Source: Sphingomonas faeni
GTDB taxonomy: Bacteria; Pseudomonadota; Alphaproteobacteria; Sphingomonadales; Sphingomonadaceae
Length of the DNA stretch: 64,000 nt
Assembly: GCF_030817315.1 (NCBI RefSeq)
Contig: NZ_JAUSZF010000001.1
Location: 444,001-508,000, forward strand
Direction: 5' to 3'
A program made the translations under genes and the position numbers. Position 1 is the first letter of the stretch; every line of letters begins with the position of its first letter. The notes beneath the pieces were generated by a model that saw only the letters and a program-made list of their open reading frames with translations, did not search any database and was not told where the DNA came from. This document shows positions 5,662-34,444 of this stretch, piece after piece.

Positions 5662-7587
5662 TCACAATGCGCCTGGTTTCGGCCTGAACGCGCCGAGGCC
5701 TGCGATCGCGAGGCGTTGCGCGGGGATGGCGGTCTCGGCGAACGAGAAGCGCAGGTAGCGCGCGGCGGTCGGTCGGGCGAAGGCGATACGCTGGGCGGCA
5801 AGCGCGTAGGCGATGTTGGGGAGTTCACCCTTGGCGATGTCCTGCCAGGTCTTGCCGTCGGCGCTCGCCTCGACCCGGTAGCCCTTGGGCGGGGCGGTCT
5901 TCGCCATCACCGCGCGGGATGGGATGAGGACGAACCCGGCGAGTGTCTCGGTCGCGCCGAGGTCGATCGTGACCGAGGCGGGTATGCCGGGTGCGGGTGC
6001 GGGCATGGTCCAGGCGGTTGCGCTGTCGTCGTCGAGCAGCGCCTTGGCGCCCGGTGCGGTGGCGGTGACGATCGACCAGCGGCTGGTGACGACGGTGGTC
6101 GTGTCGGTGTTCCGGACCGGTGCGACCGGAGCGGGCGCGACCTGGCGGAACAGCGCGACTTCGCTGATCGCGGGGCAGGCTGTGCCTTCGAGGATTCGCA
6201 GGCGGAGGCGGCGGGGGGCGATCGGTTTTTCGAGACGAACGATCCGTTGGGGGCCGATTCCCGAATGCTCGGCGAGCTTTTCCCATCGTCCGTTGATCTC
6301 CGCATCAATAGCGAAGCGGGTGACGCGTATGCCGAGCGGGAGATACTCGCGGAGGCGGATGAGATCGAACGATCGGCCCGGCGGGAGGTCGAGCGTAAGC
6401 GTCGGGGTGGTGATGGCGTCGGGCGTCGACCAATAGGTGTCGCGGTTGCCGTCGAGCACCGTGCTGGCCGCATAGGTCTTCCCGCGGACGTGGGTTGCCG
6501 ATGCGACCGCACCTTTTGCGAGATCGGTGGCGAAGGTCGCGGCCTGCGCGGTGCCGAACGACTTCAGCGTCTCGACGTCGATGTCGGCGAGGCGACCGCG
6601 GCGGTCCGGCGGCAGGTTGAGGTTGAGGTTGGTGCCGCGGCCGACCGACTCGTCGTGGAGCTTGATGAGGCGCGCGGGCGTCTTGACCTTCGAATCCTCG
6701 TCGGCGTGATAGAACCAGCCGGGCCGGATCGAGACGTCGGTCTCGGCGGGCCACCAGAGCGGCGCGCCGCGCACGCCCGAATTGCCCTCGGACTGGACAT
6801 AGGGATGGTTCGGCATCGTCGGCCAGCACGGATCGCCGGCGACGCCATCCTCGTTCCCGACCCAGCGCAGGTCCGCGCCGAGCGGGTCGAAGGTGCAGGC
6901 CATCGGCTGATGCTGGTGGACCAGCGCGACGATCGACGGCCAATTATAGTATTTCGGGGCGTCGATCTTCCGCGTGTCGCGCGCGCCGCCGTAATAGCCG
7001 TCACCGCCGTTCGCGCCGTCGAACCAGAATTCGAACAGCGTGCCATAGCGCGTGCAGAGCTCGACCACCTGCTTGCGGAAATATTCGACATAGGCTGGGC
7101 GGCCGTACTCGGCGTGGTTGCGATCCCAAGGCGAGAGATAGAGGCCGAAATCGAGGCCGGCGCGGCGGGTCGCGCGCTCCATCTCGCCGACGATGTCGCC
7201 CTTACCGTCCTTGTAGGGACTGTTGCGGATGCAGTGTTCGGTCAGCATCGTCGGCCAGAGGCAGAAGCCGTCATGATGCTTGGCGGTCAGGATGATGCCG
7301 CGCATCCCGCCCGCCTTGGCTGCCGCGACGATCTGGTCGGGCGAGAAGTCGGTCGGGTCGAAGAGCTTCGGATCCTCGTCGCCGTATCCCCATTCGCGAT
7401 CGGTGAAGGTGTTGATCGAGAAATGGACGAACGCGTATTGCTCTCGCGCGTGCCAGGCGAGTTGGCGCTTCGAGGGTGTCGCACCCCAGGGTTTCGGCGC
7501 GGTGTCGCGGCCGGCACCTATCGCTGGCGTGGCGGTGGCGGCTAGACCCGAGGCGAGCAGCAGGCGGCGGGAAACTTCGGTCATCAT
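5662..7587 (-). CDS. Alpha-L-fucosidase (GH29) with a C-terminal carbohydrate-binding region
   Basis: This 641-residue protein has an N-terminal export signal with a twin-arginine look (SRRLLLASG). The GH29 barrel follows (ILTAKHHDGFCLWP at about 100-112), with the likely nucleophile Asp190 in FEFWFDGANGG. After the barrel come two beta-rich stretches resembling F5/8-type C (CBM32) modules, about residues 350-470 and 490-635. It would remove alpha-linked fucose from glycans. The FWFDGA form resembles GH29 members acting on alpha-1,3/1,4-fucose, but linkage is an inference. The gene follows the GH92 stop by 16 bp with CGGAGA as ribosome site and ends the glycosidase chain. Confidence 0.9.
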   Translation of the reverse strand: MMTEVSRRLLLASGLAATATPAIGAGRDTAPKPWGATPSKRQLAWHAREQYAFVHFSINTFTDREWGYGDEDPKLFDPTDFSPDQIVAAAKAGGMRGIILTAKHHDGFCLWPTMLTEHCIRNSPYKDGKGDIVGEMERATRRAGLDFGLYLSPWDRNHAEYGRPAYVEYFRKQVVELCTRYGTLFEFWFDGANGGDGYYGGARDTRKIDAPKYYNWPSIVALVHQHQPMACTFDPLGADLRWVGNEDGVAGDPCWPTMPNHPYVQSEGNSGVRGAPLWWPAETDVSIRPGWFYHADEDSKVKTPARLIKLHDESVGRGTNLNLNLPPDRRGRLADIDVETLKSFGTAQAATFATDLAKGAVASATHVRGKTYAASTVLDGNRDTYWSTPDAITTPTLTLDLPPGRSFDLIRLREYLPLGIRVTRFAIDAEINGRWEKLAEHSGIGPQRIVRLEKPIAPRRLRLRILEGTACPAISEVALFRQVAPAPVAPVRNTDTTTVVTSRWSIVTATAPGAKALLDDDSATAWTMPAPAPGIPASVTIDLGATETLAGFVLIPSRAVMAKTAPPKGYRVEASADGKTWQDIAKGELPNIAYALAAQRIAFARPTAARYLRFSFAETAIPAQRLAIAGLGAFRPKPGAL

Positions 7588-7603
7588 CGTCTCCGGGAGA
7601 GGC

Positions 7604-9901
7604 TCAGGCAGCGGGCTGGCCGAACGAGGGCGGTCGGTCGGCGAGCTTCGCGCCGAATGCAGGGTTCGGCGTGGCGGACATGGTGAAACGGAGCGTGCCG
7701 CCAGTCGCGAGATCGGCGTGGGATATCCAGCTCTTGGTCCACGGCTTGCCGTTCCACTGGACCGCCGCGACGTAGGGCGTGTCGGCGCGGTTGCCGGGGG
7801 CTTCGACGACCAGCTTGCGACCCTTGCCGACGCGGACTTCGGCGTGGGTGAACAGCGGCGAACCGAACACGTAGACCGCCGCCACCGGATCGACCGGGTA
7901 GAAGCCGAGTGCGGACATCACGAACCACGCGCTCATCTGGCCGCAATCGTCGTTGCCGATGATCCCGTCGGGTGCGTTGCGGTACATCGTGTCGAGCAGC
8001 TTGCGGACCAGCGCCTGCGTCTTCCACGGCTGGCCGACATAGGCGTAGAGATAGGGCACGTGCTGATCGGGTTCGTTGCCGTGCGCGTATTGGCCGAGCA
8101 GCCCGGAGATGTCCGGCGGCGCGTCCTTCGGCAGCGTCGACGGTGCGGTGAACAGCGCGTCGAGCCGTGCAGCGAATTTCGCGTCGCCGCCGAAATGCGC
8201 GATCTGGCCGTAGAGGTCGTGCTGGTTCAGGAACGTGGTCTGCCAGCCGTTCGCCTCGGTGAAGTCGCGGTAGCGCTTGGTGTGGCTGAGCTGGATCGGG
8301 TCGTAGGGCGTCAGCCAACTGCCGTCGGCGAGCTTTGGCCGCGCTAAGCCGATCGTGGGATCGAGCACGTTGCGGTAGTTGCGGCTGCGGAGACGCAGGC
8401 GGTCGGCGTCGTCTTTCGCGCCGGCCTTCTGCGCGAGCGTGGCCATCGCCCAGTCGTCATAGGCGTATTCCTGAGTCCGGCTGACCGACTCGTCGACCGT
8501 ATCGGCAGGGAGGTAGCCGCGCTCGATATACGTGCCACGTGCGCGACTGTTGACCAGATCGGGCGCCGCGGGATCGAACGCGCGCGTACGGATCGCGGGC
8601 CATGCCGCGGCATAGTCGGCGTCGATGCCCTTTGACGCGGCCTCGGCCATGATCGCGACCGAATGCCAGCCGATCATCGTGCCGGTCTCTACCCCCTGGA
8701 GCGGCCAGCAGGGCGGGCCGTACGCACTTTGCTGCGTCTGGCGGATCAGGTCGCGGACCAGCGATTTCGCGCGGTCGGGGGCGACCAGCGTCAGCAGCGG
8801 GTGGAGCGTGCGATACGTGTCCCAGGTCGAATAGGTGCTGTACGCCTGTTCGCCGGCGGGCACGCTATGGATCTCGCGATCGAGCCCGATATAGCGGCCG
8901 TCGACGTCGGAGAAGAGCGTCGGGGCGATCATCGCGTGATAGAGCGCGGTGGTCATGATGACGCGCGCATCGTCGGTGCCGCCCTCGACCTTCACGACCT
9001 TCAGCGTGTCGGCCCAGGTTCGGATCGCCTGACGCCGCGCGATGTCGAAGTCGCGGAAATAGGACGCGGCGAGGTTGGTGCGGGCGCCGGCCATGTCGAC
9101 TGCCGAGACGGCGGTGCGGACGACGATCGGCGCTTTTCCGGCGTCGTCATAGTGCAGAACTGCCCGGACGCGGTCTGCGGTGACGATCGCGCCGTTGACG
9201 CTTTGCTCGCCGGCGTGGAGCGTGATCCGGTCGGGCTTGGGTGAGACGTGCATCGCGAAATGGATGCGGCGGCCCTTGGCCCAGCGGAACGTGCGGCGGC
9301 TGCCGGTGAGCGTGCCGTCGGTATCGAGTTCGATCCGGCTCTCGTCGATCAGCGGACCCTCGCCGGGGCGGCTGTCGCGGTAGTTGCCGAGGTCGACCAG
9401 GAGATGGCCGGGGCCGGCGGGGAAGTGGTGACGCTGCCACCCGACGCGCGTCTCGGCGGTCAGTTCGGAGCGGACGCCGTTGCCGAGCGTGACGGCGTAA
9501 TAGCCGGGCTCGGTGACCTCCTGCGTGTAGGTCTGGCGATAGCCTTCGCCGGGCTTGTCGGGTGCGCCGGGCAACAGCTTCACGGCGCCGCGACCGGGGA
9601 CGACCAGCACGTCCATCAGGTCGGCGATGCCGGTGCCCGACAGATGCGTGTGCGAGAAGCCCATCATGGTCGGGTCGCCGTGATGATAGCCTGAGCAGTT
9701 CGCCCAATTCTCGGTATCGGTATCGGGGCTGACCTGGACCATGCCGAACGGCATCGTCGCGCCGGGATAGGTATGGCCGTCGCCGCCGGTGCCGATCCAG
9801 AGGTCGGGTTTTGCTTGTGCCGAGCGCGCGGCGGCGGGGACCGCACCGGCGATCGCCAGCGCACCGCTGGAGCCTAGCAGGGCGCGCCTGGTAATCTTCA
9901 T
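7604..9901 (-). CDS. GH92 alpha-mannosidase
   Basis: This 765-residue protein begins with a twin-arginine-type signal ([18 protein letters not shown]). The hallmark GH92 opening [20 protein letters not shown] lies at about residues 37-56. [11 protein letters not shown], and near the end [21 protein letters not shown], are typical of the family. GH92 enzymes are calcium-dependent exo-mannosidases that clip alpha-1,2, -1,3 or -1,6 mannose; which linkage is cut here is not visible. ATG at 9901 overlaps the GH125 stop codon (ATGA), indicating translational coupling. A longer upstream frame is a shadow of GH125. In context it trims the mannose arms of N-glycans. Confidence 0.93.
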
Positions 9902-11343
9902 AATGCGCTCGCCAATAGTGCGGGGCGGGTGTTGGCAAGCTGAACGATCAGTTCTCCGAACAGCCCGTTGGCCCAGGCGAACCAGGAGCGGGTGAACTTG
10001 GCGGGATCGTCCTTGTCGAACGCCTCGTGGATGAAGCCGGTGTCGGCATCGGTGTCGCGCAGCATACGCAGGCACGCGCGGACCGTGGCATCGTCGGCGC
10101 CCGCCAGCGCGCGGACAATCAGCGACATCGGCCAGATCTGGCCGAGCCCGACATGCGGTCCGCCGATTCCCTCGGCCTTGCTGCCCTTAAAGAAATACGG
10201 GTTTGCGTCGCTCCAAGCGGCTTGCGCGGTGCGGCGCCAGAGCGGATCGGTGGCGGGGACGCAGCCCATATAGGCGAGCGCGGAGAGCGACGGCACGTTG
10301 GCGTCGTCCATGAAGATCGCGTTGCCGAAGCCGTCGACTTCGTATGCCCAGACCTCGCGGCCGTCACGCAACCGCATGCGGCCGTGTGCGACGAGGGCCG
10401 CCTCGACTTCGTTCGCGAGCGCGGTCGCATCGGCGGCGAGCGCGGTGTCGTGACGCGCTTCGCTCGCGACGACCGCAAGTTCGCGCAGGGTGGTGACCGC
10501 GAACAGGTTGGACGGGATCAGATACGGGTAGACGCAGGAATCGTCCGACGGGCGGAAGCCGCACTGGATCAGGCCGTTGGGCTTGGCGGGATTGCCCCAG
10601 CCTTCGAGCGCCATCGTCTCGGTGTTGCGGTTCGAGGATCGGAGGAAGCTGTAGGGGCCGCGACCGTCCTTGCGCTGTTGCTCACGGTAGGTGCGGATGC
10701 TCGCGCGCGCCGCCTCGGCCCAGGTCGCGTCGAACGGCGTCGCGTCGCGCGTCGCCTGCCAATAACCGTATGCTAGCCGCATCGGATAGCAGAGCGAGTC
10801 GATCTCCCATTTGCGCTCCGCCACGCCGGGTTTCATCTCGGTCTGGTCCTTCAGCGCCCAGCTGAGGTCGGTCTTGGCGGTCGGGCTTTCCATGAACGCG
10901 TTGGCGTAGGGGTCGATCAGGATCGACCGCGACTGGCGTGCGATCAGGCCGCGGAAGAGCGTGCGCAACGCGGGATCGTCGCGGACGAGATGGAGATACG
11001 GACGGACTTGCGCGGAGGAGTCGCGGAGCCAGAGGCAGGGGATGTCGCCGGTGATGACGAACGCATCGGGCGCGCCGCCGATGGTCGACATGCGGACGGT
11101 GGTGTCGAGCGTGTTCGGGTAGCAGTTGCCGAACATCCAGCGCAGCTTCGGGTCGCCGATACGGGCCGAGACGCGCGCGATCTCGCGTTCGACCGAGCGG
11201 CTGGTGAAGTTGCGGTCGGCGAGCGCGGGGCGCTTGCTGGGGAGCGAGGGGCGGGCGGCGAAGGCGGGCGTGCCGACGAGCGCGAGGCCCCCGGCCACGC
11301 CGCCCGCCATGACGGTGCGGCGGTCCATGGTCGACGCGCTCAC
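9898..11343 (-). CDS. GH125 exo-alpha-1,6-mannosidase
   Basis: This 481-residue protein carries a twin-arginine-type leader ([17 protein letters not shown]...FAA). Its GH125 blocks include [14 protein letters not shown], the metal-free acid pocket region [29 protein letters not shown] and [18 protein letters not shown]. Characterised GH125 enzymes hydrolyse alpha-1,6-mannose by inversion. Two starts are possible: GTG at 11343, which overlaps the frame-corrected GH3 stop (GTGA), and ATG at 11328, right before the signal peptide. I used the GTG because the neighbouring genes are coupled in the same way. It sits between GH3 and GH92 in the glycosidase operon. Confidence 0.92.
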
Positions 11344-13876
11344 TTTGGCAACTCCACCGTCGTGCCGGTGATCGTCAGGTCACTCCACTGGCCTGCGCCG
11401 TCGCCGGGCTGGCCGCCGCCGATGTAGAGGCGATAGGCGCCGGGGACGATCGTCCGCGTGCCGTCGCGGGCGACGCTGCTCATCGATCGCGGATCGATCG
11501 TGATCGGCAAACGCTGCGCGACTGGCCGGGCTTCAGCGCGACGCGGCCGAAGCCGACGAGCTGGCGCTGGAGGACGGGGGTGGTCGATCCGCCGGCCTTC
11601 GCGGCGGGCGCTATGAGATAGGCCTGGACCACTTCTTCGCCGGCGCGGTTGCCCGAGTTGGAGAGCTTGGCGGTAACGGTGAGCGGTTGTCCGGCCGCAA
11701 CGCTGAGGGCTGGCTTCGTCGCGGAATAGGCGAAGTTGGTGTAGCTCAGGCCGTGCCCGAAGCCCCAGAGCGGTGTACCGGTGAAGTAGCGGTAGGTGCG
11801 CTCCTTCATGGTGTAATCGGTGAAGGCGGGCAGGTCGCTGGTGGTCTTGTAGAAGGTGACGGGGAGGCGGCCGGACGGGTTGTTGAGCCCCGCCAGCGTC
11901 TCGGCGATCGCGGTGCCGCCGGACTGGCCGGGATACCAGGCGGCGAGGATTGCGTCGGCCGATGCCGGGTCGACCGCGACTGCGCTGCCGCTGGTGAGGA
12001 CGAGGACGATGGGCTTGCCGGTGGCCTTCAGCGCTTCGAGCAGGCGGACCTGTGCGAGCGGCAGGCCGATGTCGGTGCGGTCGCCGCCGACGAAGCCGGG
12101 GACGCTGACCGAGAGCGCTTCGCCTTCGAGATCGGGTGACAGGCCCATCACCGCGACGATGACGTCGGCGTCGCGGGCGGTCGCTACGGCCTGGTCGAGC
12201 AACGGCTGTGCGGGGGGGCTCCAGAGCAGGCGGATGCCTTCGTCGTCGCTGCGGTGATCGAGTTCGAGGCGGAACGGGACGGGCTTGCCGTCGCTGGTCA
12301 GCGTGACCTCGACACGGCCCTTCTTGACCTCGCCGGCGGAGAGCTGGCGATCGCCGATCCAGAGCCGGACCGCGTCGTGCGTCGAGCAATCCTTCCAGCA
12401 GGCGGGGACATCGACGACCAGCGGATAGGTGCCGGCGGCGGGGGGCGTGAACGTGCCGGTCCAGCGGACGCCGAACGTCTTGGCGAGGCCGGGGGCGGGG
12501 CTCGCGCGGTTGTGGTCGATGTCGATGTGGCGATCGGTGCGCGTCAGGGTCGGGGCGCCGACGCCGGCCTGCGCCGCGAAATACTCGGTCTTCAGGCCGC
12601 CGGCGAAGACGGTTTCGGGGACGGGTACGGCGGCGCCATCGGCGAGCGAGGAGCCTTGCGCGTACCGGACGTTGGCGGCGCCGAACTGCTTGCGGATGCC
12701 CTCCAGCGGGGTGACGGGCGCGACCGCGGTGCCATGGTAATTGCCTTGCAGCACGCCGAGATCGTCCGCGTCCGCGCCGATCACCGCGATCCGGCTGCCG
12801 GGTTTCAGCGGCAGGCGGTTCGCGTCGTTCTTCAGCAGGACGATCGATTTCCGCGCGGCGTCGAGTGCGAGCGCGCGGTGCGCGGGGGTGTCGACCTGGT
12901 CGGTGCCGATGCTGCGCCACGGATTGGCCGCGCCGAAGACGGTGCCGAGCGCGCGGCGGGCTTCGAGCGAGCGGATCAGTGCGGTGTCGACTTCGGCTTC
13001 GGTGACGAGGCCCTGGCGGACCGCGGCGGGGAGGCCGGCATAGGCGTTGCCGCAATTCAGGTCGGTGCCGCCCTTGATCGCGGCGGCGGCGGCGGCCGGG
13101 CCGTCGAGGCGGTAGTGGTGGTAGAGGTAGATGTTGGCGACCGCGTCGCAATCCGACACGGTGAAGCCCTTGAACCCCCAATCGCGCCGCAACCGGTCGA
13201 TCATCAACGGTGCGGAGGCGCAGGCCGGGACGCCGTGGATCGAGTTGTATGCGCACATCAGCGACTGCGCCTTGCCCTCGGTGACGGCGAGCCGGAACGC
13301 GGGGAAGTAGGTCGCCTCCAGGTCATACGGGCTTGGATCGACGTCGAAGCTGTCGCGTCCGGCTTCGGGGCCGCTATGCACCGCGAAATGCTTGGGGGTG
13401 GCGATGACCTTGGGGTGGAGCGGGTCGGGCCCCTGCAACCCGCCGATGAACGCGACGCCCAGCCGGCCGGTGAGGTACGGGTCCTCGCCATAGGTCTCCT
13501 GGCCGCGGCCCCAACGTGGATCGCGGAAGATGTTGATGTTGGGCGACCAGATCGTCAGCCCCTCGTAGATCTTTCGGTTCGCGCCGACGTCCTGCGCGTT
13601 GAAGCGCGCGCGTGCCTCGGTCGCCACGACGTCGCCGATCTTTGCGACCAGCGCCGTGTCCCAGGTCGCGGCCATGCCGATCGCCTGCGGGAAGACGGTG
13701 GCGTGGCCGTTGCGCGCGAGACCGTGCAGCCCCTCGTTCCACCAATCATAGGCGGGCAGACCGGCCTTGGGATCGGCGGGGACGGTGCTCTGCAACTGCG
13801 CCGCCTTTTGTTCGAGCGACATTTGCGCGACGGCTGTTGCGACGGGATCGGCGGAGGCGAGCAGGAGCCAGATCAT
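11340..13876 (-). CDS. GH3 beta-glycosidase with PA14 insert; frameshifted near the C-terminus
   Basis: As read, the frame stops at 11480 after 798 codons. It has GH3 domain 1 with [10 protein letters not shown] and nucleophile Asp242 in [10 protein letters not shown], domain 2 from about 340, a PA14-type insert at about 425-555, then a fibronectin-III-like domain. That domain breaks off at residue 789 (LKPGQSRSV) in an AAA run at 11509-11511. One extra base there restores LPITIDPRS... to a TGA at 11340, about 845 residues in all, which overlaps the GH125 start. I give the restored extent. The start ATG overlaps the beta-mannosidase stop. The likely target is a beta-linked sugar, perhaps core xylose of plant N-glycans (inference from context). 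No clear signal peptide is seen. Confidence 0.85.
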
Positions 13877-18779: not shown

Positions 18780-19030
18780 GTCGACTGCTCCCTGTATCGG
18801 CTCCTGACGGCCGCTGGTCGAGGAATGTAACCAATATAAGTCCAGACACAACCCCGTCATTTGACAGCTAGGTCGTCCTGCTATGACTGAAGATTGCAGT
18901 CGACGCGGTCTCGAGACGTACCAATATGGCCCATGGATTTAGTCTGGTTGCCCAGCGAGCGGTCCTTGGCTAGGCTGCCGCAAGGGACACGGCAAGGCTC
19001 GCTTTGAGCTGCCGGTCGGAGGGGGAATAC
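18780..19030. promoter_or_regulatory. Divergent control region between the glycosidase chain and gntR
   Basis: This 251-bp gap separates GH20 (leftward) from the GntR gene (rightward). It holds two copies of a short word, GTAACCAATAT (18827-18837) and CGTACCAATAT (18917-18927), about 90 bp apart. CCAGAC occurs in one orientation at 18842-18847 and its complement GTCTGG at 18942-18947. Such paired sites would suit a dimeric GntR repressor controlling both directions. TACCAAT also occurs in the opposite orientation before nagB-II (29314-29320). Operator function is inferred. Confidence 0.45.
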
Positions 19031-19768
19031 ATGGCGTTTTCCGATGACATCGGACGCTTTCGCAAGGGAAATCCATCGCCGCTATACCTCCAGTTGCAGG
19101 AACTGATCCGCAACGCGATCGGCGAGAAGCTGTTGGTACAAGGCAATGCGATTCCGGCCGAGCGCGATCTCGCGATCGAGTACGACGTTTCGCGGATTAC
19201 CGTGCGCAAAGCGATCGGCGGGCTGGTCGAGGAGGGGCTTCTCACGCGCAGGCGTGGCGCAGGGACGTTCGTCGCCGGGCGCGTCGAGAAGAGCTTCTCG
19301 AAACTGTCGTCGTTCAGCGAGGACATGGCGGCGCGTGGGCGCACGTCGAGCAGCAGCTGGATCTCGCGTTCGGCGGGGCAGGTGAACCCGGAGGAAGCAA
19401 TGGCGCTGGGGTTGTCGCCGGGCGCGGCGGTGTTCCGCTTCAACCGCATCCGCTATGCCGACGAAGAGGCGATGGCGCTCGAATTCTCGACCATCGCGGG
19501 ATATTGCCTGCCGTCGATCGAAGTGGTCGACGACTCGCTCTACACCGCGCTCGAGACTGCGGGCAGTCGTCCGGTACGCGCATTGCAACGGTTGAGGGCG
19601 GTCCCGTTCGGAAGCGAACATGCGCGGATGCTGGGCGTCGACGCGGGCCATGCCGGTCTGCTGATCGAGCGTCGCGGGTTCCTGCGCGATGGCCGGGCGG
19701 CGGAGTTCACGCGCTCCTATTACCGCGGCGATGCGTACGACTTCGTCGCCGAACTCGCCGATATCTGA
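19031..19768 (+). CDS. GntR family regulator, HutC/UTRA type
   Basis: This 245-residue protein has an N-terminal winged helix (PLYLQLQELIRNAIGE; PAERDLAIEYDVSRITVRKAI; LLTRRRGAGTFV) followed by a UTRA effector domain (SPGAAVFRFNRIRYADEEAMALE; FTRSYYRGDAYDFV). UTRA regulators of this group commonly sense phosphorylated amino sugars and repress GlcNAc genes (NagR/YvoA type). ATG at 19031 follows GGAGGGGGA. The beta-galactosidase gene starts 22 bp downstream, so they are probably co-transcribed, and the glycosidase chain diverges. A GlcNAc-6-P or GlcN-6-P effector is an inference from the nag genes nearby. Confidence 0.88.
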   Translation: MAFSDDIGRFRKGNPSPLYLQLQELIRNAIGEKLLVQGNAIPAERDLAIEYDVSRITVRKAIGGLVEEGLLTRRRGAGTFVAGRVEKSFSKLSSFSEDMAARGRTSSSSWISRSAGQVNPEEAMALGLSPGAAVFRFNRIRYADEEAMALEFSTIAGYCLPSIEVVDDSLYTALETAGSRPVRALQRLRAVPFGSEHARMLGVDAGHAGLLIERRGFLRDGRAAEFTRSYYRGDAYDFVAELADI

Positions 19769-19790
19769 CCTTCAATACCGAGAGCATTCG

Positions 19791-22744: not shown

Positions 22745-22751
22745 CAGCGGA

Positions 22752-26947: not shown

Positions 26948-26956
26948 GGGTGCGTT

Positions 26957-26998
26957 CTCGATACCAGAAGGGATGGGCTCGATGCCGGAAGGAGTGGG
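26957..26998. repeat. Two tandem 21-bp units before the PTS fusion gene
   Basis: CTCGATACCAGAAGGGATGGG-type units occur twice in a row, differing at 5 positions, in the 77-bp gap between nagA and the PTS fusion. In the upstream extension of the fusion frame they would read PTPSGIE-PIPSGIE. The length, a multiple of three, keeps that frame open. No role is known. Confidence 0.7.
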
Positions 26999-27024
26999 CG
27001 CGGGAATGGGTTGGGCGCGACCGG

Positions 27025-28167
27025 TCAGGCCGCGCTCGTCCCGCCGATCCACGTGCCGACCGGATGCAGGTCGCGCGTGAGCACGACCCAATCGGCGGCG
27101 CGGCCGACCTGCAACGTGCCGCGCTCTTGCGACAGCCGCAGGAACGCCGCGGGATAGGTCGCTGCCATCGCCGCGGCGATCTCGGGGGCTACGCCGAGGC
27201 GGTCGACGGTGTTGCGCACCGCCGCTGCCATGTCGAGATCGGAGCCCGCCAGCGTGCCGTCGGCGCCGACGCAGCGGCCACCCTCGACGTAAATCTCGCG
27301 ACCCTGCAGCACGAACGACTTCTCGGCCGCACCGACGCAGGGCATCGCGTCGGATACCAGCATGAACCGGTCATGCGGCCGTGCGCGCAACGCGATCCGC
27401 AGAACCGCGTCATCGACATGGAAGCCGTCGACGATGATTCCGCAATACACCGCCTGATCGTCGAGCACCGCGCCGACCACGCCGGGGGCACGGTGGACGA
27501 GCGGTGACATGGCGTTGAACAGATGCGTCACGCCGGTGATGCCAGCGGCCATGCCGGCGCTCGCGGTGGCGTGATCGGCGTCGCTATGGCCGATGCTGAT
27601 GAGCACGCCCGCCGCGGTCAGCGTCGCGATCTGCGCCGCAGTCACGCGCTCGGGCGCGAGCGTCACCATGACCCGGCCGAGGCGGGGACGAGTCAGCAGC
27701 GCGAGCAGCTCGTCGTCGAGATCCTGGAAGCGCGTGGGGTCGTGGATGCCCTTGCGCGCGGGGCTGATCACCGGCCCCTCGATATGGATGCCGAGCACGC
27801 CGGGGACGCCCGCGAGGATCGCCGCGTCGACCGCGTCGAGCGCGAGCGCGATCACGTCGGGCGTGTCGCTGATCAGTGTCGGCAGGAACGCGGTGGTGCC
27901 GAACGGACGATGCGCCGCGCCGATCGCGGCGATGCCCTCGACCGTGGGCGTATCGTTGAACAGCACGCCGCCGCCGCCGTTGACCTGCGTATCGACGAAC
28001 CCCGGCATCAGCCAGCCGCCGTCGAGATCGATCGCCGTGGCGGACGAATCCTGGCTGTCGGACGCACCGATCCGCGCGATCCGCCCGTCCTCGACGACGA
28101 TCGTCGCGTCGTTCAGCACGCCTGTGGGAGTGACCACATGGCCATTCGAAAACCGGAAGATCGTCAT
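27025..28167 (-). CDS. nagA: N-acetylglucosamine-6-phosphate deacetylase
   Basis: This 380-residue amidohydrolase begins HVVTPTGVLNDATIVVEDGRI and shows the metal and substrate blocks GFVDTQVNGGGG, HIEGPVISPARKGIHDP, IGHSDA and VTHLFNAMS, with the catalytic Asp in VSDAMP. It converts GlcNAc-6-P to GlcN-6-P plus acetate in the cytoplasm, feeding the deaminase encoded directly upstream. ATG at 28167 overlaps the stop of that gene (ATGA). Its length is normal for the family. All key motifs are intact. Confidence 0.96.
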   Translation of the reverse strand: MTIFRFSNGHVVTPTGVLNDATIVVEDGRIARIGASDSQDSSATAIDLDGGWLMPGFVDTQVNGGGGVLFNDTPTVEGIAAIGAAHRPFGTTAFLPTLISDTPDVIALALDAVDAAILAGVPGVLGIHIEGPVISPARKGIHDPTRFQDLDDELLALLTRPRLGRVMVTLAPERVTAAQIATLTAAGVLISIGHSDADHATASAGMAAGITGVTHLFNAMSPLVHRAPGVVGAVLDDQAVYCGIIVDGFHVDDAVLRIALRARPHDRFMLVSDAMPCVGAAEKSFVLQGREIYVEGGRCVGADGTLAGSDLDMAAAVRNTVDRLGVAPEIAAAMAATYPAAFLRLSQERGTLQVGRAADWVVLTRDLHPVGTWIGGTSAA

Positions 28168-29240
28168 AGCGTGCGCGTCACCTTGCTGAGATGCGACGGT
28201 GCGTCGGGGTTGAACCCGCGCGCGAGGGAGAGGGCGTTGACCATGCGATAGAAGCTTTGGATCATCAGGATCGGCTCGATCGCCGGATGGGCCTTCAGCG
28301 CAGGCAGGACGCCGTCGTCGCTGCTGCCGTCGAGCCCGGCATCGGCGAGCAAAACCGCCGCGCCACGCTCGGCGAACTCGCGGGCCGCCTCGCGCACGCC
28401 GTTGCCGGCCGCGTCGGAGGTCGCGAGCGCCAGTAGCGGGAAGCCGTCCTCGACCAACTGCATCGGGCCGTGGCGGACTTCGGCCGAACTGAACGATTCG
28501 GCGTGCAGCGCGCAGGTTTCCTTCATCTTCAGCGCTGCCTCGTTGGCGATGCCGAAGCCCACGCCGCGCGCGATCACGAACAGATTGGTCGCGGTCCGCA
28601 GCGGCGCGACGGCGTCCGACCAGTCGAGTGCCCAGGCGCGGCCGAGATCGGCGGGGAGCGCTGCGACCGCACTACGCAGCACGTCGTCGTCGGCCCATTC
28701 GGCGGTCAATGCGGCGAAGGCGGCGAGCGAGCAGATATAGGATTTGGTCGCCGCGACCGACTTTTCCGGTCCGGCGCACAGCGGGATGAGCGTATCGGCG
28801 GTTTCGGCGAGCGGCGAAGTCTCGTCGTTCACGAACGCGACGACATGCGCGCCGGCGGCCTTCTGCGCGGCGACCGCGGCGAGCAGGTCGGGGCTGCGAC
28901 CGCTCTGCGATACCGCGATGCACAGCGTGTTCCGCGCGCCGAGCGGTGCGTCATAGATCGACACGACCGAGGGCGCGGCGGCGGCGACCGGGATGCCGGT
29001 CTTCGTCCAGATCAGGTATTTGCCGTAGACCGCCGAGTGATCCGACGAGCCGCGCGCGCAGGTCACGACGACCGCGGGCGGTGCGGCGCGAAGGCGTGCA
29101 CCGAGCGCCGCGAACGCCGCCGCGTTGGTAGCGAGCATACGCGCGACCGCTTCGGACGATTCCGCAGCCTCACGGAACATCAGCGTTGCCGCTTCCGCAA
29201 TCGGCGGGGGTGTGATCGGAGGCGGGGAGGCTTCGTGCAT
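28164..29240 (-). CDS. SIS-domain glucosamine-6-phosphate deaminase (NagB-II type)
   Basis: This 358-residue protein has two SIS domains (TCARGSSDHSAVYGKYL; VSQSGRSPDLLAA; EKSVAATKSYICSLAAF; ARGVGFGIANEAALKMKETC; EVRHGPMQLVEDG). It lacks the glutaminase half of GlmS, as in NagB-II enzymes that turn GlcN-6-P into fructose-6-P and ammonia. It is the first gene of the nag run. ATG at 29240 gives a 20-residue proline-rich extension before the usual MFREAAESSEAV start; a second ATG there (29180) is possible. The 81-bp gap to cutC upstream probably holds a promoter. Confidence 0.92.
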   Translation of the reverse strand: MHEASPPPITPPPIAEAATLMFREAAESSEAVARMLATNAAAFAALGARLRAAPPAVVVTCARGSSDHSAVYGKYLIWTKTGIPVAAAAPSVVSIYDAPLGARNTLCIAVSQSGRSPDLLAAVAAQKAAGAHVVAFVNDETSPLAETADTLIPLCAGPEKSVAATKSYICSLAAFAALTAEWADDDVLRSAVAALPADLGRAWALDWSDAVAPLRTATNLFVIARGVGFGIANEAALKMKETCALHAESFSSAEVRHGPMQLVEDGFPLLALATSDAAGNGVREAAREFAERGAAVLLADAGLDGSSDDGVLPALKAHPAIEPILMIQSFYRMVNALSLARGFNPDAPSHLSKVTRTL

Positions 29241-29328
29241 AGCGGCTCGCTTCGATTGGCGTTCGGCGAGGAGCGAGAGGCCCCCCGACCCAGACCGGTT
29301 TGAGTAAGTTATGGATTGGTATTATTCA
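29241..29328 (-). promoter_or_regulatory. Likely control site before the nag genes
   Basis: The gap between cutC and nagB-II is 81 bp, the only sizeable break in this leftward run. It holds AGACCGGTTTGAG (29292-29304) and GGATTGGTATTATTC (29313-29327), which contains the complement of TACCAAT seen before gntR, and TGGTATT. AGACCGGT also occurs at 31237-31244 ahead of the TonB receptor. From memory, NagQ boxes in Xanthomonas contain TGGTATT half-sites, so the local GntR protein may act here. Confidence 0.35.
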
Positions 29329-30122
29329 AGCGCTGGATGTCCGGCTACCATGTTCGCCAGTCGCTCTACCGCGTCGCGATCTGTCGCTGACCGTCCAGCC
29401 GATGTGAAACCGAAGCGTAGTTCGGCCGGATCGGCGGGGGTCGTTATGGGCGCGCGACAGGAGGCGTGGACTTCGCGGACACCGGTGACGAGTATCGCGG
29501 GCAGCGTTTCCGGGGAGACGCCGCTGCCTGCGAGCACGATGATCCGACCGGCGGCTTGTCGGTGCAGTGCCGCCAGCATCTTCACTCCGTCGATCGCCTT
29601 GGGTGTGCCGCCCGAGGTCAAAATTCGGTCGAAGCCGAGCGTGACGGCGGACTCGAGCGCGTCGGGCATGTCGCGGCACAGGTCGAAGACGCGGTGTAGC
29701 GTCAGCGATAGCGGACGTCCGCGAGCATCGCCCAGCGACTTGGCGTGCGCGGCCCAGCCGGCGAGGGCGGGCAGGTCGAGACGGTGGTCGGCATCGAGCG
29801 CACCGATGACGATTCCCGCCAATCCGGCGTCGGCCGCGGTGCGGATGTCGTCGGCGATCAGCGCTTGCTCACGCGTCGTATAGACGAAGCCGCCTTCGCG
29901 TGGCCGCGCCAGGAGGTGGACGGGCACGCCCGAAGCGTCCGACGCCGACGCCGCGACCCGGATCAGGGACGCGGGCGGCGTGAGTCCGCCGACCGCCAGC
30001 GCCGCGCACAGTTCGATGCGATCCGCACCGCCGGCGATCGCCGCGTCGACACCTTGGAGGTCCTCGACGCAGACTTCGAGGATCGGTCGTGCGCCGCGCG
30101 CCATGTCTTCCGGACCGCTCAC
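29322..30122 (-). CDS. cutC: CutC family protein
   Basis: This 266-residue protein matches CutC along its length: ILEVCVEDLQGVDAAIAGGADRIELC, VHLLARPREGGFVYT, GIVIGALDADHRLD, LTLHRVFD, and FDRILTSGGTPKAIDG. CutC is a TIM-barrel protein first linked to copper tolerance in E. coli, a role later questioned. Here it is locked between a GlcNAc-asparaginase (GTGA overlap at 30119-30122) and the nag genes, which suggests a sugar-related role (inference). The start is GTG 30122 or ATG 30104. No other copper gene is present. Confidence 0.9.
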   Translation of the reverse strand: MSGPEDMARGARPILEVCVEDLQGVDAAIAGGADRIELCAALAVGGLTPPASLIRVAASASDASGVPVHLLARPREGGFVYTTREQALIADDIRTAADAGLAGIVIGALDADHRLDLPALAGWAAHAKSLGDARGRPLSLTLHRVFDLCRDMPDALESAVTLGFDRILTSGGTPKAIDGVKMLAALHRQAAGRIIVLAGSGVSPETLPAILVTGVREVHASCRAPITTPADPAELRFGFTSAGRSATDRDAVERLANMVAGHPALE

Positions 30123-31141
30123 GCCTGGAACAGCGACCGCGCCTTCAGCACCGTCGTCTTGCCGCGCGCGTCGGTGACCGCATAGGTGAAGCCGGGCAAC
30201 AGGCAGAACGCGCCGACATTCCCCTTGGTATCCAGCGCGAGGAAGCCAACCTGCACGCCGCGGATCGCATCGCCGCGCAACTTGGCGATGTGGCGAACGA
30301 CTTCCTCACAGGCCTGTTGCGGCGTCGATCCGCCGCGCATCGACGCTACGACGCGCGCCGAGCCTGCGACGCGGGTCACTTCTTCGCCGAGCCCGGTCGA
30401 GGTGGCACCGCCGACACCCGCCTCGACGTACAGCCCCGATCCGACCTGGGGCGAATCGCCGACGCGGCCGCGCATCTTGAACGCCATGCCCGACGTCGTG
30501 CAGGCGCCGGCCATCCGCCCGTCGGCGGTGCGTGCGAGCAGACCGATGGTATCGTGGTCGAGCGCACCGCCCGGCGTGCGGGTGATGCGGTTTTCGCTAT
30601 TGGCTTCGGGTTGGTATTTCGCGGTCTTGAGCCAGTCGCGCCATGCCTTTTCCGATTCCGGGGTCAGCAGCGATTGTTGCGGGAAGCCCTGGTCGCGCGC
30701 GAACCGTGTCGCGCCTTCGCCGACGAGGAAGGTGTGCGGCGTCCGCTCCATCACGCGGCGCGCGACGGAAATCGCATGCATCGTGTTCTCCAGCGCGGCA
30801 ACGGCGCCGACTCCGCCGACATCGTCCATGATGACCGCGTCGAGCGTGACGTGGCCGTCGCGGTCGGGATAGCCGGAATAGCCGACGCTATGATTGGTAG
30901 GGTCGGCTTCGGGTACCATCGCGCCGGCCTCGACCGCGTCGATCAAGGATCCGCCCTTGGCGAGTTGCGCGAAGGCCACCGCGTTGGCGGCGGCGCCGAA
31001 GTCCCATGTCGACAGGACCATCGCACCGGTCGCCGAAGCGTCCGTGGCTGCGCCCGATCGGGCATGCGCTCGATTCGTTACGAATGGTATCATGCCCAGG
31101 CCGCCCAAGCCGGCGAGCAACGACCGTCGCGTGTTCTCCAT
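30119..31141 (-). CDS. N4-(beta-N-acetylglucosaminyl)-L-asparaginase (Ntn hydrolase)
   Basis: This 340-residue protein has a twin-arginine-type leader (ENTRRSLLAGLGGLGMIPF). The conserved STWDFG block follows, then LDAVIMDDVGGVGAVAAL and the autoprocessing site LDHDTIGLLART, where Thr198 would become the N-terminal nucleophile after self-cleavage. The later blocks SGMAFKMRGRVGDSP and GGATSTGLGEE bind substrate in the family. Aspartylglucosaminidases cut GlcNAc-Asn, the last bond of N-glycan breakdown; isoaspartyl peptidase activity is the alternative. ATG at 31141 is preceded by AAGGGGGAT. It is first of the leftward cutC/nag run. Confidence 0.9.
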   Translation of the reverse strand: MENTRRSLLAGLGGLGMIPFVTNRAHARSGAATDASATGAMVLSTWDFGAAANAVAFAQLAKGGSLIDAVEAGAMVPEADPTNHSVGYSGYPDRDGHVTLDAVIMDDVGGVGAVAALENTMHAISVARRVMERTPHTFLVGEGATRFARDQGFPQQSLLTPESEKAWRDWLKTAKYQPEANSENRITRTPGGALDHDTIGLLARTADGRMAGACTTSGMAFKMRGRVGDSPQVGSGLYVEAGVGGATSTGLGEEVTRVAGSARVVASMRGGSTPQQACEEVVRHIAKLRGDAIRGVQVGFLALDTKGNVGAFCLLPGFTYAVTDARGKTTVLKARSLFQA

Positions 31142-31229
31142 CAGATCCCCCTTGCGTTCTTGTACGCACGCTATCGCAAGGAGATGGCGACCGCCAGTAG
31201 TGACGCCGATTTGCAACATTCCGACGCAA

Positions 31230-31335
31230 ATGTTCTAGACCGGTATTGCTTCGGCATTGACTGACGGCGCGTTTTGACCAAACCAGTACGGGCAACCGGT
31301 ATAGCGCTATCACGCAACCGAGCTTTTTTAGGGGT
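31230..31335 (+). promoter_or_regulatory. Upstream region of the TonB receptor with a 10-bp palindrome
   Basis: ATAGCGCTAT (31301-31310), a perfect palindrome with a central CG, lies 30 bp before the receptor start. This is the shape of LacI-family operators. Further upstream are CTAGACCGGTATTG (31235-31248), sharing AGACCGGT with the nag promoter region, and a T-run just before the ribosome site AGGGGTAGG. The 198-bp gap also serves the divergent asparaginase gene. Confidence 0.4.
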
Positions 31336-31339
31336 AGGT

Positions 31340-34300
31340 ATGAACTTCGGCCATTCTGTTTCGCGGATCGCGCTCGTCGGATCTCTCGTGTTTTCCGCTA
31401 CCACGGCGTTCGCACAGGATGTGCCCGCGCAGGCCGTGACGCCCGCCCAGGCTGCCGCGAGCACGCCCGCGGAAGCCAAGGTCGAGGCGGATGCGACCAC
31501 CGCAACCACCGCTGTCGATCGCAACACGCCGACGGACGACACGATCGTCGTCACCGGATCGCGCATCCAGCGTCCGAACATGACGTCGGCCGCGCCGATC
31601 ACCTCGGTCACCGCGCAGGACATTCGCGCGCAGGCTGCGGTCAATGTCGAGGACGTGCTGAACCGCCTTCCGCAGATCGCGCCGGACAGCCAGCAGACCT
31701 ATAACGACTCCGACGGCCGCCAGCGCATCAAGCTGCGCAGCCTCGGGTTCGAGCGCACGCTGGTCCTGATCGACGGCAAGCGCCTCGGCACGCAGAACGG
31801 CCAGGACGTCGGCATCATCCCGCCGTCGCTGCTCGAGCGGGTCGACGTGCTGACCGGCGGCGCATCGTCGGTCTACGGCTCGGACGCAGTCGCGGGCGTC
31901 GTCAACTTCGTCCTGAAGAAGGATTTCGAAGGCGTTCAGATCGACGGCAACTACAATTTCTACAACCATAACAACAAGGACACGGTGGTGTCCTCGCTGG
32001 CACGCGCGTCGGGCTTCAACAGCCCGCGCGGCCTGACCAACGACGGCGGTCGTGCCGACGTGACGGTGACCGCGGGCAAGAAGCTGTTCGACGGCGCGCT
32101 GCGGATCAACGGCTTCGTCAACTACAAGCACACCGATCCGGTGCTGTTGTCGGAGCGCTCGAACTCGGGCTGCTACCTGACGCAAACGACGCTGAACGCG
32201 CCGCTGTCGTGCGGGCTCACCCCGAACAGCTCGACGAGCGGCCTCATTTCGCCTCTGGACGCGAAGGGCAATCAGCTGGGGCCGCAGTACGTCAATAATC
32301 CGAATGGGACGCGGGATTTCGTGCCCTTCGGTCCGGGCGCCGGCAACGCCTCAAACTACTTCAGCAATTATGCCTATCAGCGTCCGTCCGAACGCATAAA
32401 TGCGGGTGGCTTTGTGAGCTTGGACATCGCGCCAGACGCCGAAGTCTATGCATCAGGTATCTGGTTCCGTGACAAATCGTACAACAATTACCCGGCGATC
32501 GCGGGCGGGAAGGTTCAGGTAAACTGCAGCAACCCATTCCTGTCGGGTTCTCAGGCTACCGCGCTTTGCGGCGCCAATGCGGGCACGGGGACGTCCGTTC
32601 CGATCGACCTGCGCTATCGTCTCGGCGAGGGCAACGATCAGCCCGATTCTTATTTGAACACCGGTGTTCGCCTGACAGGCGGCGTTCGCGGTAAGGTCGG
32701 CAGCGCGTGGACGTACGACGTGGGCGGCGTCTACGCTCGCAATCATCAGGACTACACGCCCAGCTTCGTCAATGCGGCCAACCTGCAGAACTCGATCAAC
32801 GTCGGTGGCACGCGTGCAGCACCGACCTGCGCCACTACCACGGATGCCGCCTGCGTTCCCTTCGACATTTTCAGCGCAGGCAACACCAATCCTGCTCTGA
32901 TCGACTATCTGTATGACCAGGGCACGTCGGCGACCACCGGCACGCTGTACGACGTGCAGGCCAACCTCACCGGCGACCTCGGCAAATACGGCATCACGTC
33001 GCCGTTCGCTGAGCAGGGCGTCGCGATCGCGCTGGGTACGGAATATCGCAAGGACACACTCAAATCGACGGCCGACAGCGTGTATCGCGCAGGACTTGGC
33101 GGCACCGACAGCTATCTGAAGCAGGACGTCTGGGAGGCCAACATCGAGGTTCAGGCGCCGCTGGTCGAGCATAAGCGCTTTGCCGACCTGTTGCAGGTGA
33201 ACGGCGGCTACCGCGTGTCGAAGTACAACAGCAATTCGAGCACGTTCAACACGTGGAAGGTCGAGGGCATCTACGCGCCCATCAGCGACCTGACGTTCCG
33301 CGCGTCGTTCAACAAGGCGCAGCGCGCACCGACGGTGACCGAAATCCGGCAGGCGACCAACGTCGACTTCGCGTCCGGCGGTGCAGGCACGTTCAACGAT
33401 TTCTGCGCACCCACCGCCATCCGGAACACCGATGGTACTGTCGTCAACAACCCGGATGGTACGATCCGATACGGCGCGCCGATCGCGTCGCGTGAAGTGT
33501 GTCGTGCAACCGGCCTGTCCGATGCGCTCTACGGCAGCCAGACTTTGCTGTGCAGCAACGGCACGACCCCGAACGGCTCGGCGGCGTGCACGGTACGCTC
33601 GGGTGGCTTCACCGCCGATCCGGAGACTGCCTACACGCAGACTTACGGCCTGATCGTGAAGCCGCGGTTCGTGCGGGGGCTGGTGTTCTCGGTCGATCGC
33701 TACCAGATCAAGATCAACGACTCGCTCGGCTATAACGACTTCAGCTATTACACCGATGGCTGCCAGCGTTCGAACGGCGATGCGTTCTTCTGCCAGGGCA
33801 TCGTCCGAAATCCCGGCACCGGTACGCTGTATTCGACCGCCGGAAGCAACCCGACCACCGGTTTCATCCGCCAGGGCACGACGAACTACTACACGTCGAT
33901 CGCGCGGGGCTATGATTTCCAGGCGCAGTACACGCTCGACCTTGCCGGCGCCGGCAAGATCGACTGGAACTTCAACGGGTCGCTGGCGACCTTCGCCGGT
34001 GGCCAGGACTCGCCGGTCCAGCCGGAGCGCAACTGCGCGGGCTACTACGGCAACGGTTGCGGTCAGCTGCTCCCGAAATGGTCGCACGGCCTGCGCGCGA
34101 CCTACACGACGGTCGACCGCGGCTTCAGCGCTTCGTTCAACTGGCGTTACGTCGGTTCGCTGACCAACGCGGACAATTCGGGTGATCCGGCGATCGGTGG
34201 CACGCCGGAGCGGGAGCGGACCAGCTACTACCGGGTTTCGCCGAAGAGCTACTTCGACCTCGCGCTCAACTTCGCGATCGACAAGCAGTTCTCGTTGCGC

Positions 34301-34444
34301 CTGATCGCCAACAACCTGCTCGACAAGAGCGCGCCGATCGTTCCGGACTCGTACAACGTCGCCCTCGCGCGCACGAACACGATCCCGCAGCGCTACGACT
34401 CGCTGGGCCGCAACCTCGCGGTCGGTGCGACCGTTCGGTTCTGA
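31340..34444 (+). CDS. TonB-dependent receptor, probable glycan transporter
   Basis: This 1034-residue outer-membrane protein has a signal peptide (MNFGHSVSRIALVGSLVFSA...AFAQ) and an Ala/Thr-rich linker. The TonB box region reads DDTIVVTGSRIQRP and the plug domain includes VEDVLNRLPQI, RSLGFERTLVLIDGKR and GGASSVYGSDAVAGVVNFVLKK. A 22-strand-type barrel ends GATVRF. Several cysteine pairs occur in predicted outer loops (SGCYLTQ/LSCGLT; DGCQRSNGDAFFCQ; RNCAGYYGNGCG). It follows AGGGGTAGG. Divergent placement from the GlcNAc-asparaginase suggests import of glyco-asparagines or N-glycan pieces; the substrate is inferred. No SusD partner is present, as usual in sphingomonads. Confidence 0.92.
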   Translation: MNFGHSVSRIALVGSLVFSATTAFAQDVPAQAVTPAQAAASTPAEAKVEADATTATTAVDRNTPTDDTIVVTGSRIQRPNMTSAAPITSVTAQDIRAQAAVNVEDVLNRLPQIAPDSQQTYNDSDGRQRIKLRSLGFERTLVLIDGKRLGTQNGQDVGIIPPSLLERVDVLTGGASSVYGSDAVAGVVNFVLKKDFEGVQIDGNYNFYNHNNKDTVVSSLARASGFNSPRGLTNDGGRADVTVTAGKKLFDGALRINGFVNYKHTDPVLLSERSNSGCYLTQTTLNAPLSCGLTPNSSTSGLISPLDAKGNQLGPQYVNNPNGTRDFVPFGPGAGNASNYFSNYAYQRPSERINAGGFVSLDIAPDAEVYASGIWFRDKSYNNYPAIAGGKVQVNCSNPFLSGSQATALCGANAGTGTSVPIDLRYRLGEGNDQPDSYLNTGVRLTGGVRGKVGSAWTYDVGGVYARNHQDYTPSFVNAANLQNSINVGGTRAAPTCATTTDAACVPFDIFSAGNTNPALIDYLYDQGTSATTGTLYDVQANLTGDLGKYGITSPFAEQGVAIALGTEYRKDTLKSTADSVYRAGLGGTDSYLKQDVWEANIEVQAPLVEHKRFADLLQVNGGYRVSKYNSNSSTFNTWKVEGIYAPISDLTFRASFNKAQRAPTVTEIRQATNVDFASGGAGTFNDFCAPTAIRNTDGTVVNNPDGTIRYGAPIASREVCRATGLSDALYGSQTLLCSNGTTPNGSAACTVRSGGFTADPETAYTQTYGLIVKPRFVRGLVFSVDRYQIKINDSLGYNDFSYYTDGCQRSNGDAFFCQGIVRNPGTGTLYSTAGSNPTTGFIRQGTTNYYTSIARGYDFQAQYTLDLAGAGKIDWNFNGSLATFAGGQDSPVQPERNCAGYYGNGCGQLLPKWSHGLRATYTTVDRGFSASFNWRYVGSLTNADNSGDPAIGGTPERERTSYYRVSPKSYFDLALNFAIDKQFSLRLIANNLLDKSAPIVPDSYNVALARTNTIPQRYDSLGRNLAVGATVRF

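Follow-up and report, generated by a model that had tools for sequence, protein, structure and literature searches.

What does a protein annotated for copper homeostasis do among genes for glycan breakdown? The question is raised by a 64,000-nucleotide stretch of the Sphingomonas faeni genome (contig NZ_JAUSZF010000001.1, positions 444,001 to 508,000; the window), in which positions 5,662 to 34,444 hold an island of glycosidase, glycosylasparaginase (AGA) and N-acetylglucosamine (GlcNAc) utilisation genes, together with a cutC gene (29322-30122, minus strand; PF03932 1e-61, 207.9 bits, cut-off 23.3) that was absent from the gene list of the initial annotation. As an N-glycan locus, the island is a variant of ones already known; what is new is the evidence placing CutC in glycosylasparagine/GlcNAc catabolism. 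The membership of CutC in the GlcNAc/AGA route is well supported and highly probable. Overall, the explanation that we favour, with somewhat better than even confidence, is a nix-like island in which CutC is a cytosolic enzyme of the same route. The identities of the genes, their operon overlaps, the fold class of CutC and its linkage, co-occurrence and fusion come from computation; the substrates, the transport of the amino sugar and the chemistry of CutC we infer. The CutC family extends from bacteria to humans and its annotation still refers to copper. The strong genomic tie to glycosylasparaginase and the natural fusions to NagB-II described below make the function of CutC directly testable.

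Linkage of CutC to glycosylasparaginase in related genomes

In the window, the stop of the AGA gene (30119-31219, minus strand; likely start 31141) and the start of cutC overlap by 4 bases, and CutC is translationally coupled to AGA. The initial annotation had called the upstream gene a GlcNAc-asparaginase, and by sequence this is right: the product matches AGA structures at about 1e-95 (PDB 3ljq/1p4k) and the best isoaspartyl peptidase at 4e-30, and Thr224, the nucleophile, corresponds in the alignment to the first residue of the mature beta chain. An isoaspartyl peptidase identity was rejected on these grounds, and the window asparaginase is, judged from its sequence, a glycosylasparaginase predicted to cut GlcNAc-Asn.

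Eighty genomes related to that of the window, 49 of them within the genus, were compared. Their PF01112 matches were sorted by strength and profile start position into an isoaspartyl class (63 genes; stronger matches starting at profile position 1-3, or split or partial copies) and an AGA class (26 genes, the window AGA included; weaker matches with a later profile start); the class counts exclude five rows, each the second half of a split gene. The profile start was at 28 or later in 25 of the 26 AGA-class genes; the remaining one, at 19, belongs to the sole genome of the 80 with AGA only. CutC was found in 26 relatives: 22 genomes carried both CutC and AGA, 4 CutC only, 1 AGA only and 53 neither (p=1e-14, a Fisher test that, like the others reported here, treats genomes as independent and ignores kinship). 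Within the genus the corresponding counts were 20, 4, 0 and 25 of 49. The isoaspartyl class, used as a control, showed no co-occurrence with CutC (21/5/38/16, p=0.42).

Fifteen of the 26 AGA genes and none of the 63 isoaspartyl genes lay within 1.5 kb of CutC. By tblastn, with AGA counted within 1.5 kb of CutC and other genes within 3 kb, AGA, nag-type or glycosidase neighbours were present at 26 of the relatives' 27 CutC loci, the window's locus being left out. CutC also tracks GH125 (20/6/2/52 of the 80), so that 20 of the 22 GH125-bearing genomes hold CutC and the gene set recurs in relatives.

CutC in wider samples

Among 249 Pseudomonadota genomes, CutC was present in 44, the AGA class, assigned as in the relatives, in 17 and both in 13 (p=4e-8). 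Eight of the 17 AGA genes, the window's included, lay within 3 kb of CutC, and 14 of the 43 CutC loci besides the window's were linked. Among 296 Bacteroidota genomes, 94 of the 95 genomes with CutC had an AGA-strength match compared with 70 of the 201 others (p=2e-30); the count is a proxy (a weaker PF01112 match outside the 150 strongest rows), and some of these weaker matches could be other family members or fragments. The strong matches, those among the 150 strongest, occurred in 50 of 95 and 89 of 201 genomes, respectively (p=0.21). At 60 Bacteroidota CutC loci, drawn from 99 rows and mostly better-scoring and on roomy contigs, not random, AGA was found at 36 (34 within 1.5 kb and 30 within 500 bp), GH20 at 8, GH2 beta-mannosidase at 7 and NagB at 5.

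A third sample consisted of named genomes scanned with a Hymenobacter CutC, of which 80 of 113 loci were kept. AGA was present at 32 of these, of which 30 within 500 bp, all on the same strand, and GH20 at 26, of which 23 within 1.5 kb. In 45 of the 48 genomes whose CutC locus was free of AGA, an AGA-class gene was located elsewhere, one of them a fragment, as judged by eye from the profile start. Mere descent was considered as the source of the linkage and rejected: a FastTree tree of 156 CutC proteins, rough and with long branches, requires no fewer than 13 changes of the label "AGA adjacent", and AGA adjacency has therefore arisen or been lost many times.

Ten annotated plasmid CutC regions were chosen from 67 records with a match. 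AGA and CutC overlap on two Hymenobacter plasmids, one of which also carries nagB and a GH18 gene. The Kozakia plasmid has nagA, ROK, CutC, GH20 and nagB; the Paracoccus plasmid has CutC with nagA, nagB, a phosphosugar isomerase and ROK; and the Sinorhizobium plasmid has an amidase, ROK, CutC, nagA, SIS and N-acetylglucosamine kinase. On the Asticcacaulis and Pseudoalteromonas plasmids a gene for a BadF-type ATPase comes after CutC. The Palleronia plasmid is unlinked by the thresholds used (ROK farther off, an M81 peptidase, peptide ABC genes and CutC), and the Parabacteroides and Enterococcus plasmids carry CutC without a link. In two of these regions (L094:5720-7081 and L097:4570-6003) AGA-free CutC and ROK stand near the amidase (Sinorhizobium) or near the M81 peptidase and peptide transporters (Palleronia); the amidase and the peptidase may be further enzymes that cleave amide bonds and supply CutC.

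A proteobacterial run (L122) consists of a BadF-type kinase, AGA, GH85, CutC, GH2 beta-mannosidase, an unidentified open reading frame (ORF) and GH92; five of the six genes identified in it have an assigned pathway step, and CutC alone has none. At two Hymenobacter loci (L153:8767-11505 and L166:8767-11505, plus strand) the gene after CutC is an ORF of 912 aa; in the L153 protein it matches domains of D-Ala-D-Ala ligase that are apparently repeated.

Fusion to NagB-II and the fold of CutC

One genome of the same genus (G001) carries two loci with single proteins of 627 and 625 aa in which CutC is N-terminal and NagB-II C-terminal, with nagA next (L040:8858-10741, minus strand, and L056:9603-11480, plus strand). 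A protein search returned 16 clusters of 573-602 aa that combine PF03932 with PF01380. Because these come from several sources, one of them a 513-kb contig of Sphingomonas mucosissima, an assembly slip is unlikely. All of the twelve conserved CutC positions that were checked are kept in 8 of the 16 clusters and the rest are altered, for example by E37K with C39A. The L056 copy likewise has K and A at E37 and C39, as do several fusion clusters, which suggests a paralogue whose CutC half is modified or inactive.

The window CutC is predicted to be a TIM barrel with the fold of solved CutC proteins (model pLDDT 93), and it differs from other PF03932 members such as human 3iwp and Shigella 1twd by its glycan-catabolism gene context. 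It has no signal peptide, nor has any of the 24 CutC N-termini examined; export signals, both signal peptides and twin-arginine-like N-termini, were judged by eye.

Proposed role of CutC

In the proposed route, the TonB receptor would bring glycopeptides or glyco-asparagines into the periplasm, and exported glycosidases would trim the chain sugar by sugar down to GlcNAc-Asn. AGA would then split the amide bond to give aspartate and 1-amino-GlcNAc, the GlcNAc phosphotransferase system (PTS) would import the sugar as the 6-phosphate, and NagA and NagB-II would complete the route. Cytosolic CutC would convert 1-amino-GlcNAc or its 6-phosphate to GlcNAc or GlcNAc-6-phosphate (GlcNAc-6-P) and ammonia, a step otherwise left to spontaneous breakdown. 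Such breakdown of glycosylamines is slow at neutral pH. Hydrolysis of 1-amino-GlcNAc-6-phosphate to GlcNAc-6-P would fit a protein that, like CutC, is tied to AGA, is free of a signal, has a phosphosugar fold, is fused to NagB-II and stands beside GlcNAc kinases or a PTS. Hydrolysis by CutC of the glycosylamine released by AGA (1-amino-GlcNAc or, probably, its 6-phosphate) is put forward tentatively, as possible and short of probable. The broader proposal, that the whole family, the human protein included, is no copper protein and hydrolyses 1-amino-GlcNAc or glycosylamine 6-phosphate, seems rather unlikely. If the glycosylamine reading is true, a step thought to be spontaneous would be enzyme-catalysed, and CutC may account for a step in the breakdown of glycoproteins that was deemed enzyme-free in 2020 (PMC6960285).

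A number of observations weigh against this role. In that 2020 study, 1-amino-GlcNAc is described as not metabolizable and as unstable, especially at acidic pH, and the lactobacillar interior may allow its spontaneous breakdown; GlcNAc release was measured there for an AGA reaction at pH 7.0 (PMC6960285). Non-enzymatic breakdown is thus not negligible under those conditions, which speaks against an absolute requirement for an enzyme, and the odds of an enzymatic glycosylamine step are lowered a little accordingly. AGA has a twin-arginine-like signal whereas CutC has none, and the amino sugar would have to survive import. In the Pseudomonadota, 31 of the 44 CutC genomes are without an AGA-class gene and 29 of the 43 loci are without a linked neighbour; some CutC proteins therefore work without AGA. 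Among 149 ORFs beside those 29 loci, 8 match YecM and 7 arginyl-tRNA synthetase, and the commonest 25 of their 69 families are mixed and include the LysR type. Unlinked loci also make up 20 of the 80 in the Hymenobacter-CutC scan and 3 of the 10 plasmid regions, and 19 of the 60 Bacteroidota loci are without an AGA, glycosidase or nag-type match. In a clustering of 24 Bacteroidota-type loci, of which 21 have no linked neighbour and 3 have one, 12 loci shared a neighbour, and the two copies of it that were scanned both match dehydrogenase-E1/transketolase domains. Many Flavobacteriales-type metagenome-assembled genomes have CutC within 1.5 kb of GH20 (23/80 loci), an enzyme whose product is no glycosylamine. 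The neglect of kinship, the Bacteroidota proxy and the non-random choice of the 60 loci count on the same side.

CutC could instead serve in the general metabolism of GlcNAc-6-P and glucosamine 6-phosphate, for example in anomer or isomer conversion or in by-product repair, with a tie to AGA because AGA feeds that route. The fusion to NagB-II, the sugar-phosphate TIM-barrel fold, the GH20 neighbours just mentioned and the many Pseudomonadota with CutC and no AGA are all in keeping with this, as are nag-type neighbours without AGA at 11 of the relatives' 27 loci and the plasmids on which CutC stands beside nagA/ROK/nagB-type genes (Kozakia, Paracoccus, Sinorhizobium) or BadF-type ATPases (Asticcacaulis, Pseudoalteromonas). 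Against it, CutC in Bacteroidota hardly occurs outside genomes that have an AGA-strength match (94/95, by the proxy), and NagA and ROK were found near CutC at 0 of 60 Bacteroidota loci in a search with few queries, partly from other phyla. We regard a general role of this kind as possible, if somewhat doubtful. Copper homeostasis, with a merely incidental place in the island, is very improbable. The family name in NCBIfam and PDB titles and the conservation of Cys18 (93%) and Cys39 (98%) speak for it; the repeated linkage and fusion to AGA and nag genes speak against it, as do the most conserved residues, which include many of charged active-site types (E16, R35, E37, R73, H143, R144, D147, H219). 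None of the genes named around CutC in the ten annotated plasmid regions is a copper gene, although copper genes were not searched for systematically.

CutC as an enzyme of GlcNAc-Asn or GlcNAc catabolism appears in none of the titles and abstract starts listed by searches of open-licence literature, which is no proof of absence, and PMC13204146 gave no match to glycosylamine terms. The nearest hint is a STITCH prediction, in the available part of one paper, that links VirK with CutC, NixI and an asparaginase (PMC5700972).

The island as an N-glycan utilisation locus

The genes listed in the initial annotation are all present in the window with Pfam and NCBIfam scores far above chance, and its proposal that they serve the use of N-glycans or glyco-asparagines is backed by the nearest structures of GH92 and GH29, by the AGA sequence and by the recurring gene set. 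Use of plant-type N-glycans or glyco-asparagines by a nix-like locus is very likely. The glycosidases described here are all on the minus strand. The GH2 beta-mannosidase with a Mannosidase_ig domain (13873-16458; PF22666 1e-50) has its best PDB match in 6bye (2e-282), a Xanthomonas citri enzyme. The GH125 protein (9898-11343; PF06824 3e-154) is of the alpha-1,6-mannosidase type, with alpha-1,6-mannosidases among its PDB matches (2p0v 2e-153, 5m7i 5e-108). The GH92 alpha-mannosidase (7604-10075; PF07971 2e-156) is closest to 7zgm (7e-143), then to 6f8z, and entries named as alpha-1,2-mannosidases, such as 2wvx (3e-88), are far behind. In the parts of the sources available, 7zgm is an alpha-1,3-mannosidase for plant N-glycans from Bacteroides massiliensis and 6f8z (BT3130) an alpha-1,3-mannosidase (PMC9522356), and a GH92 enzyme of X. 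campestris is reported for core alpha-1,3-mannose (PMC10154615). The GH29 alpha-L-fucosidase, with F5/8-type C domains (5662-7587; PF01120 6e-34), is closest to the Akkermansia enzyme 8ayr (1e-152). The corresponding paper, as far as available, describes the AmGH29D structure, which cuts alpha-1,3/4-fucose of Lewis epitopes, and its data statement ties 8AYR to AmGH29A instead (PMC10067855). The island also encodes a GH20 beta-N-acetylhexosaminidase (16458-18860; PF00728 6e-113; PDB 6q63 3e-131) and a GH3 glycosidase with PA14 (11480-13876; PF01915, C-terminal domain, 7e-54; PDB 7vc7 5e-98, beta-glucosidase 6r5i 3e-91), a possible beta-xylosidase. As a set, these enzymes would fit a complex, probably plant-type, N-glycan.

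Other sugars, such as plant cell-wall or chitin oligosaccharides, are an improbable substrate for the island. The GH3, GH2, GH29 and GH20 families are broad, the relatives of the GH3 protein range from (xylan) beta-xylosidases to beta-glucosidases, and the N-glycan fit might thus be a coincidence of families. A genuine AGA, the joint presence of GH92 and GH125 with a beta-mannosidase, and a GH92 whose closest solved relative is an alpha-1,3-mannosidase for plant N-glycans all argue otherwise, and GH125 tracks the AGA class in the 80 relatives (18 both, 5 and 4 with a single one, 53 neither). Elsewhere in the same genome (L231, G000:C1:2003000-2018000) lies a second alpha-mannoside cluster of three GH92 genes, GH125 and GH43, which also carries a LacI regulator, a transporter and an outer-membrane receptor.

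Exo-acting trimming of the glycan

The initial annotation also proposed that the glycan is degraded without an endoglycosidase. For GH85 and PNGaseA this holds across the whole genome of the window (G000), in which neither was matched. The one GH18 match of the genome lies outside the window, in a 1122-aa fusion of GH18, polysaccharide deacetylase and glycosyltransferase domains, which was ruled out as an ENGase by its architecture. With no GH85 or PNGaseA match and GH18 only in this fusion, it is plausible that exo-acting enzymes alone take the glycan down to GlcNAc-Asn, and the island would offer a compact set of enzymes for plant-type N-glycans that is apparently free of endoglycosidases. 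It is unlikely that an endo-acting enzyme of another family, or of the PNGaseF type, frees the glycan instead. The PNGaseF profile gave zero matches anywhere, control genomes included, and is thus uninformative on PNGaseF, which leaves room for such an enzyme; in addition, one relative (G045) has GH85 about 13 kb from AGA and CutC, in a stretch with GH125, GH2, GH92 and ROK. GH85 was matched in 3 of the 80 relatives, two of the matches being weak, and with G045 among them the endo-free state is therefore not general in the genus. The G045 stretch (L229/L230, G045:C1:1940000-1977000) shows that N-glycan islands of a second type occur within the genus, with GH125, GH85, GH2, GH92, ROK, CutC, AGA and an MFS-type transporter match.

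Comparison with known systems

The nix cluster of Xanthomonas, to which the initial annotation had related the island, contains NixF, which we take to be a GH18 enzyme, and NixL, which we take to belong to GH35. In the available parts of the nix papers, NixF is a glycosyl hydrolase for the GlcNAc-GlcNAc bond (COG3858) and NixL a beta-galactosidase (COG1874) (PMC5700972); a TonB receptor, the GH29 fucosidase NixE and other exo-hydrolases are shared with the island (PMC5700972, PMC10154615), and an asparaginase is in the neighbourhood, as in the island (PMC5700972). The relation is borne out: with its TonB receptor (31274-34444), GH29 and GH92 alpha-mannosidase, the island is a variant of nix-type clusters. 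It differs in having no endo-enzyme of the NixF type, in a GH2 GalA enzyme in place of NixL (no search aimed at GH35 was made), and in joining GlcNAc PTS, nagA, nagB-II, AGA and CutC to the glycosidases in one island.

The plant N-glycan pathway of Bacteroides massiliensis likewise employs a GH92 alpha-1,3-mannosidase, GH3, GH29 and a GH2 galactosidase and trims from the non-reducing end; unlike the island, it opens with a PNGase and its genes are spread across three loci, and the word CutC is absent from the available main text (PMC9522356). The alf-2 system of Lactobacillus casei shares with the island a glycosylasparaginase, a GntR-family regulator, a fucosidase and the delivery of GlcNAc to glycolysis. 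By the available part of its description, it differs in importing the finished glyco-amino acid, in using a ROK kinase and no PTS, in an AGA without a signal peptide, and in that CutC is not among the listed genes and 1-amino-GlcNAc is said to decay non-enzymatically (PMC6960285).

Layout of the island

The island falls into three blocks. The glycosidase run reads, on the minus strand, GH20, GH2 beta-mannosidase, GH3, GH125, GH92, GH29 and a DUF1330 gene, with overlapping ends between GH20 and GH2 (at 16458) and between GH2 and GH3 (13873-13876). For GH92 the listed start lies too far upstream, as the first domain does not begin until residue 91 of the listed ORF, and the true start is probably nearer 9.9 kb. 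The DUF1330 gene (5317-5610, minus strand; 97 aa; PF07045 4e-22), which like cutC was missing from the initial gene list, begins 51 bases past the GH29 stop and is possibly the last member of the glycosidase operon. Divergent from this run are a GntR regulator with UTRA (19004-19768, plus strand; PF07702 2e-32, PF00392 5e-17) and the GH2 beta-galactosidase of GalA type (19689-22703, plus strand; NCBIfam GalA 1118 bits, cut-off 900), whose listed start, overlapping the regulator, is too early.

The order in the second minus-strand block is AGA, CutC, nagB-II, nagA, EIIA-HPr-EI and EIIBC, with the TonB-dependent receptor (plus strand; PF07715 3e-22) divergent from AGA. The SIS-type glucosamine-6-phosphate deaminase nagB-II (28164-29240; PF01380 4e-26) has NF046059 as its top match, below the cut-off (339 vs 430 bits), and nagA (27025-28167) is a GlcNAc-6-P deacetylase (TIGR00221 301 bits, cut-off 226). 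EIIA, HPr and EI form a single chain (24452-27091; PF00358, PF00381, PF05524, PF00391, PF02896), and the GlcNAc-specific EIIBC (22752-24995; TIGR01998 617 bits, cut-off 553) has a listed start that is too early and overlaps EI. Twin-arginine-like N-termini were seen in AGA, GH29, GH125 and the galactosidase, and a signal peptide in the beta-mannosidase.

An operator of the NagR/DasR type was considered for the gap between AGA and the receptor and dropped, as there was one 12/16 match and only the nearest of seven relatives compared has the same. The gap (31220-31340) also holds a GGTATTGACC-like element that is common to several relatives and may be a promoter or operator. Beside the island, at 2004-4133 on the plus strand, lies a gene for an S9 peptidase of the prolyl oligopeptidase type. 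The N-terminus of this peptidase resembles a signal, and the enzyme could help to expose free GlcNAc-Asn.

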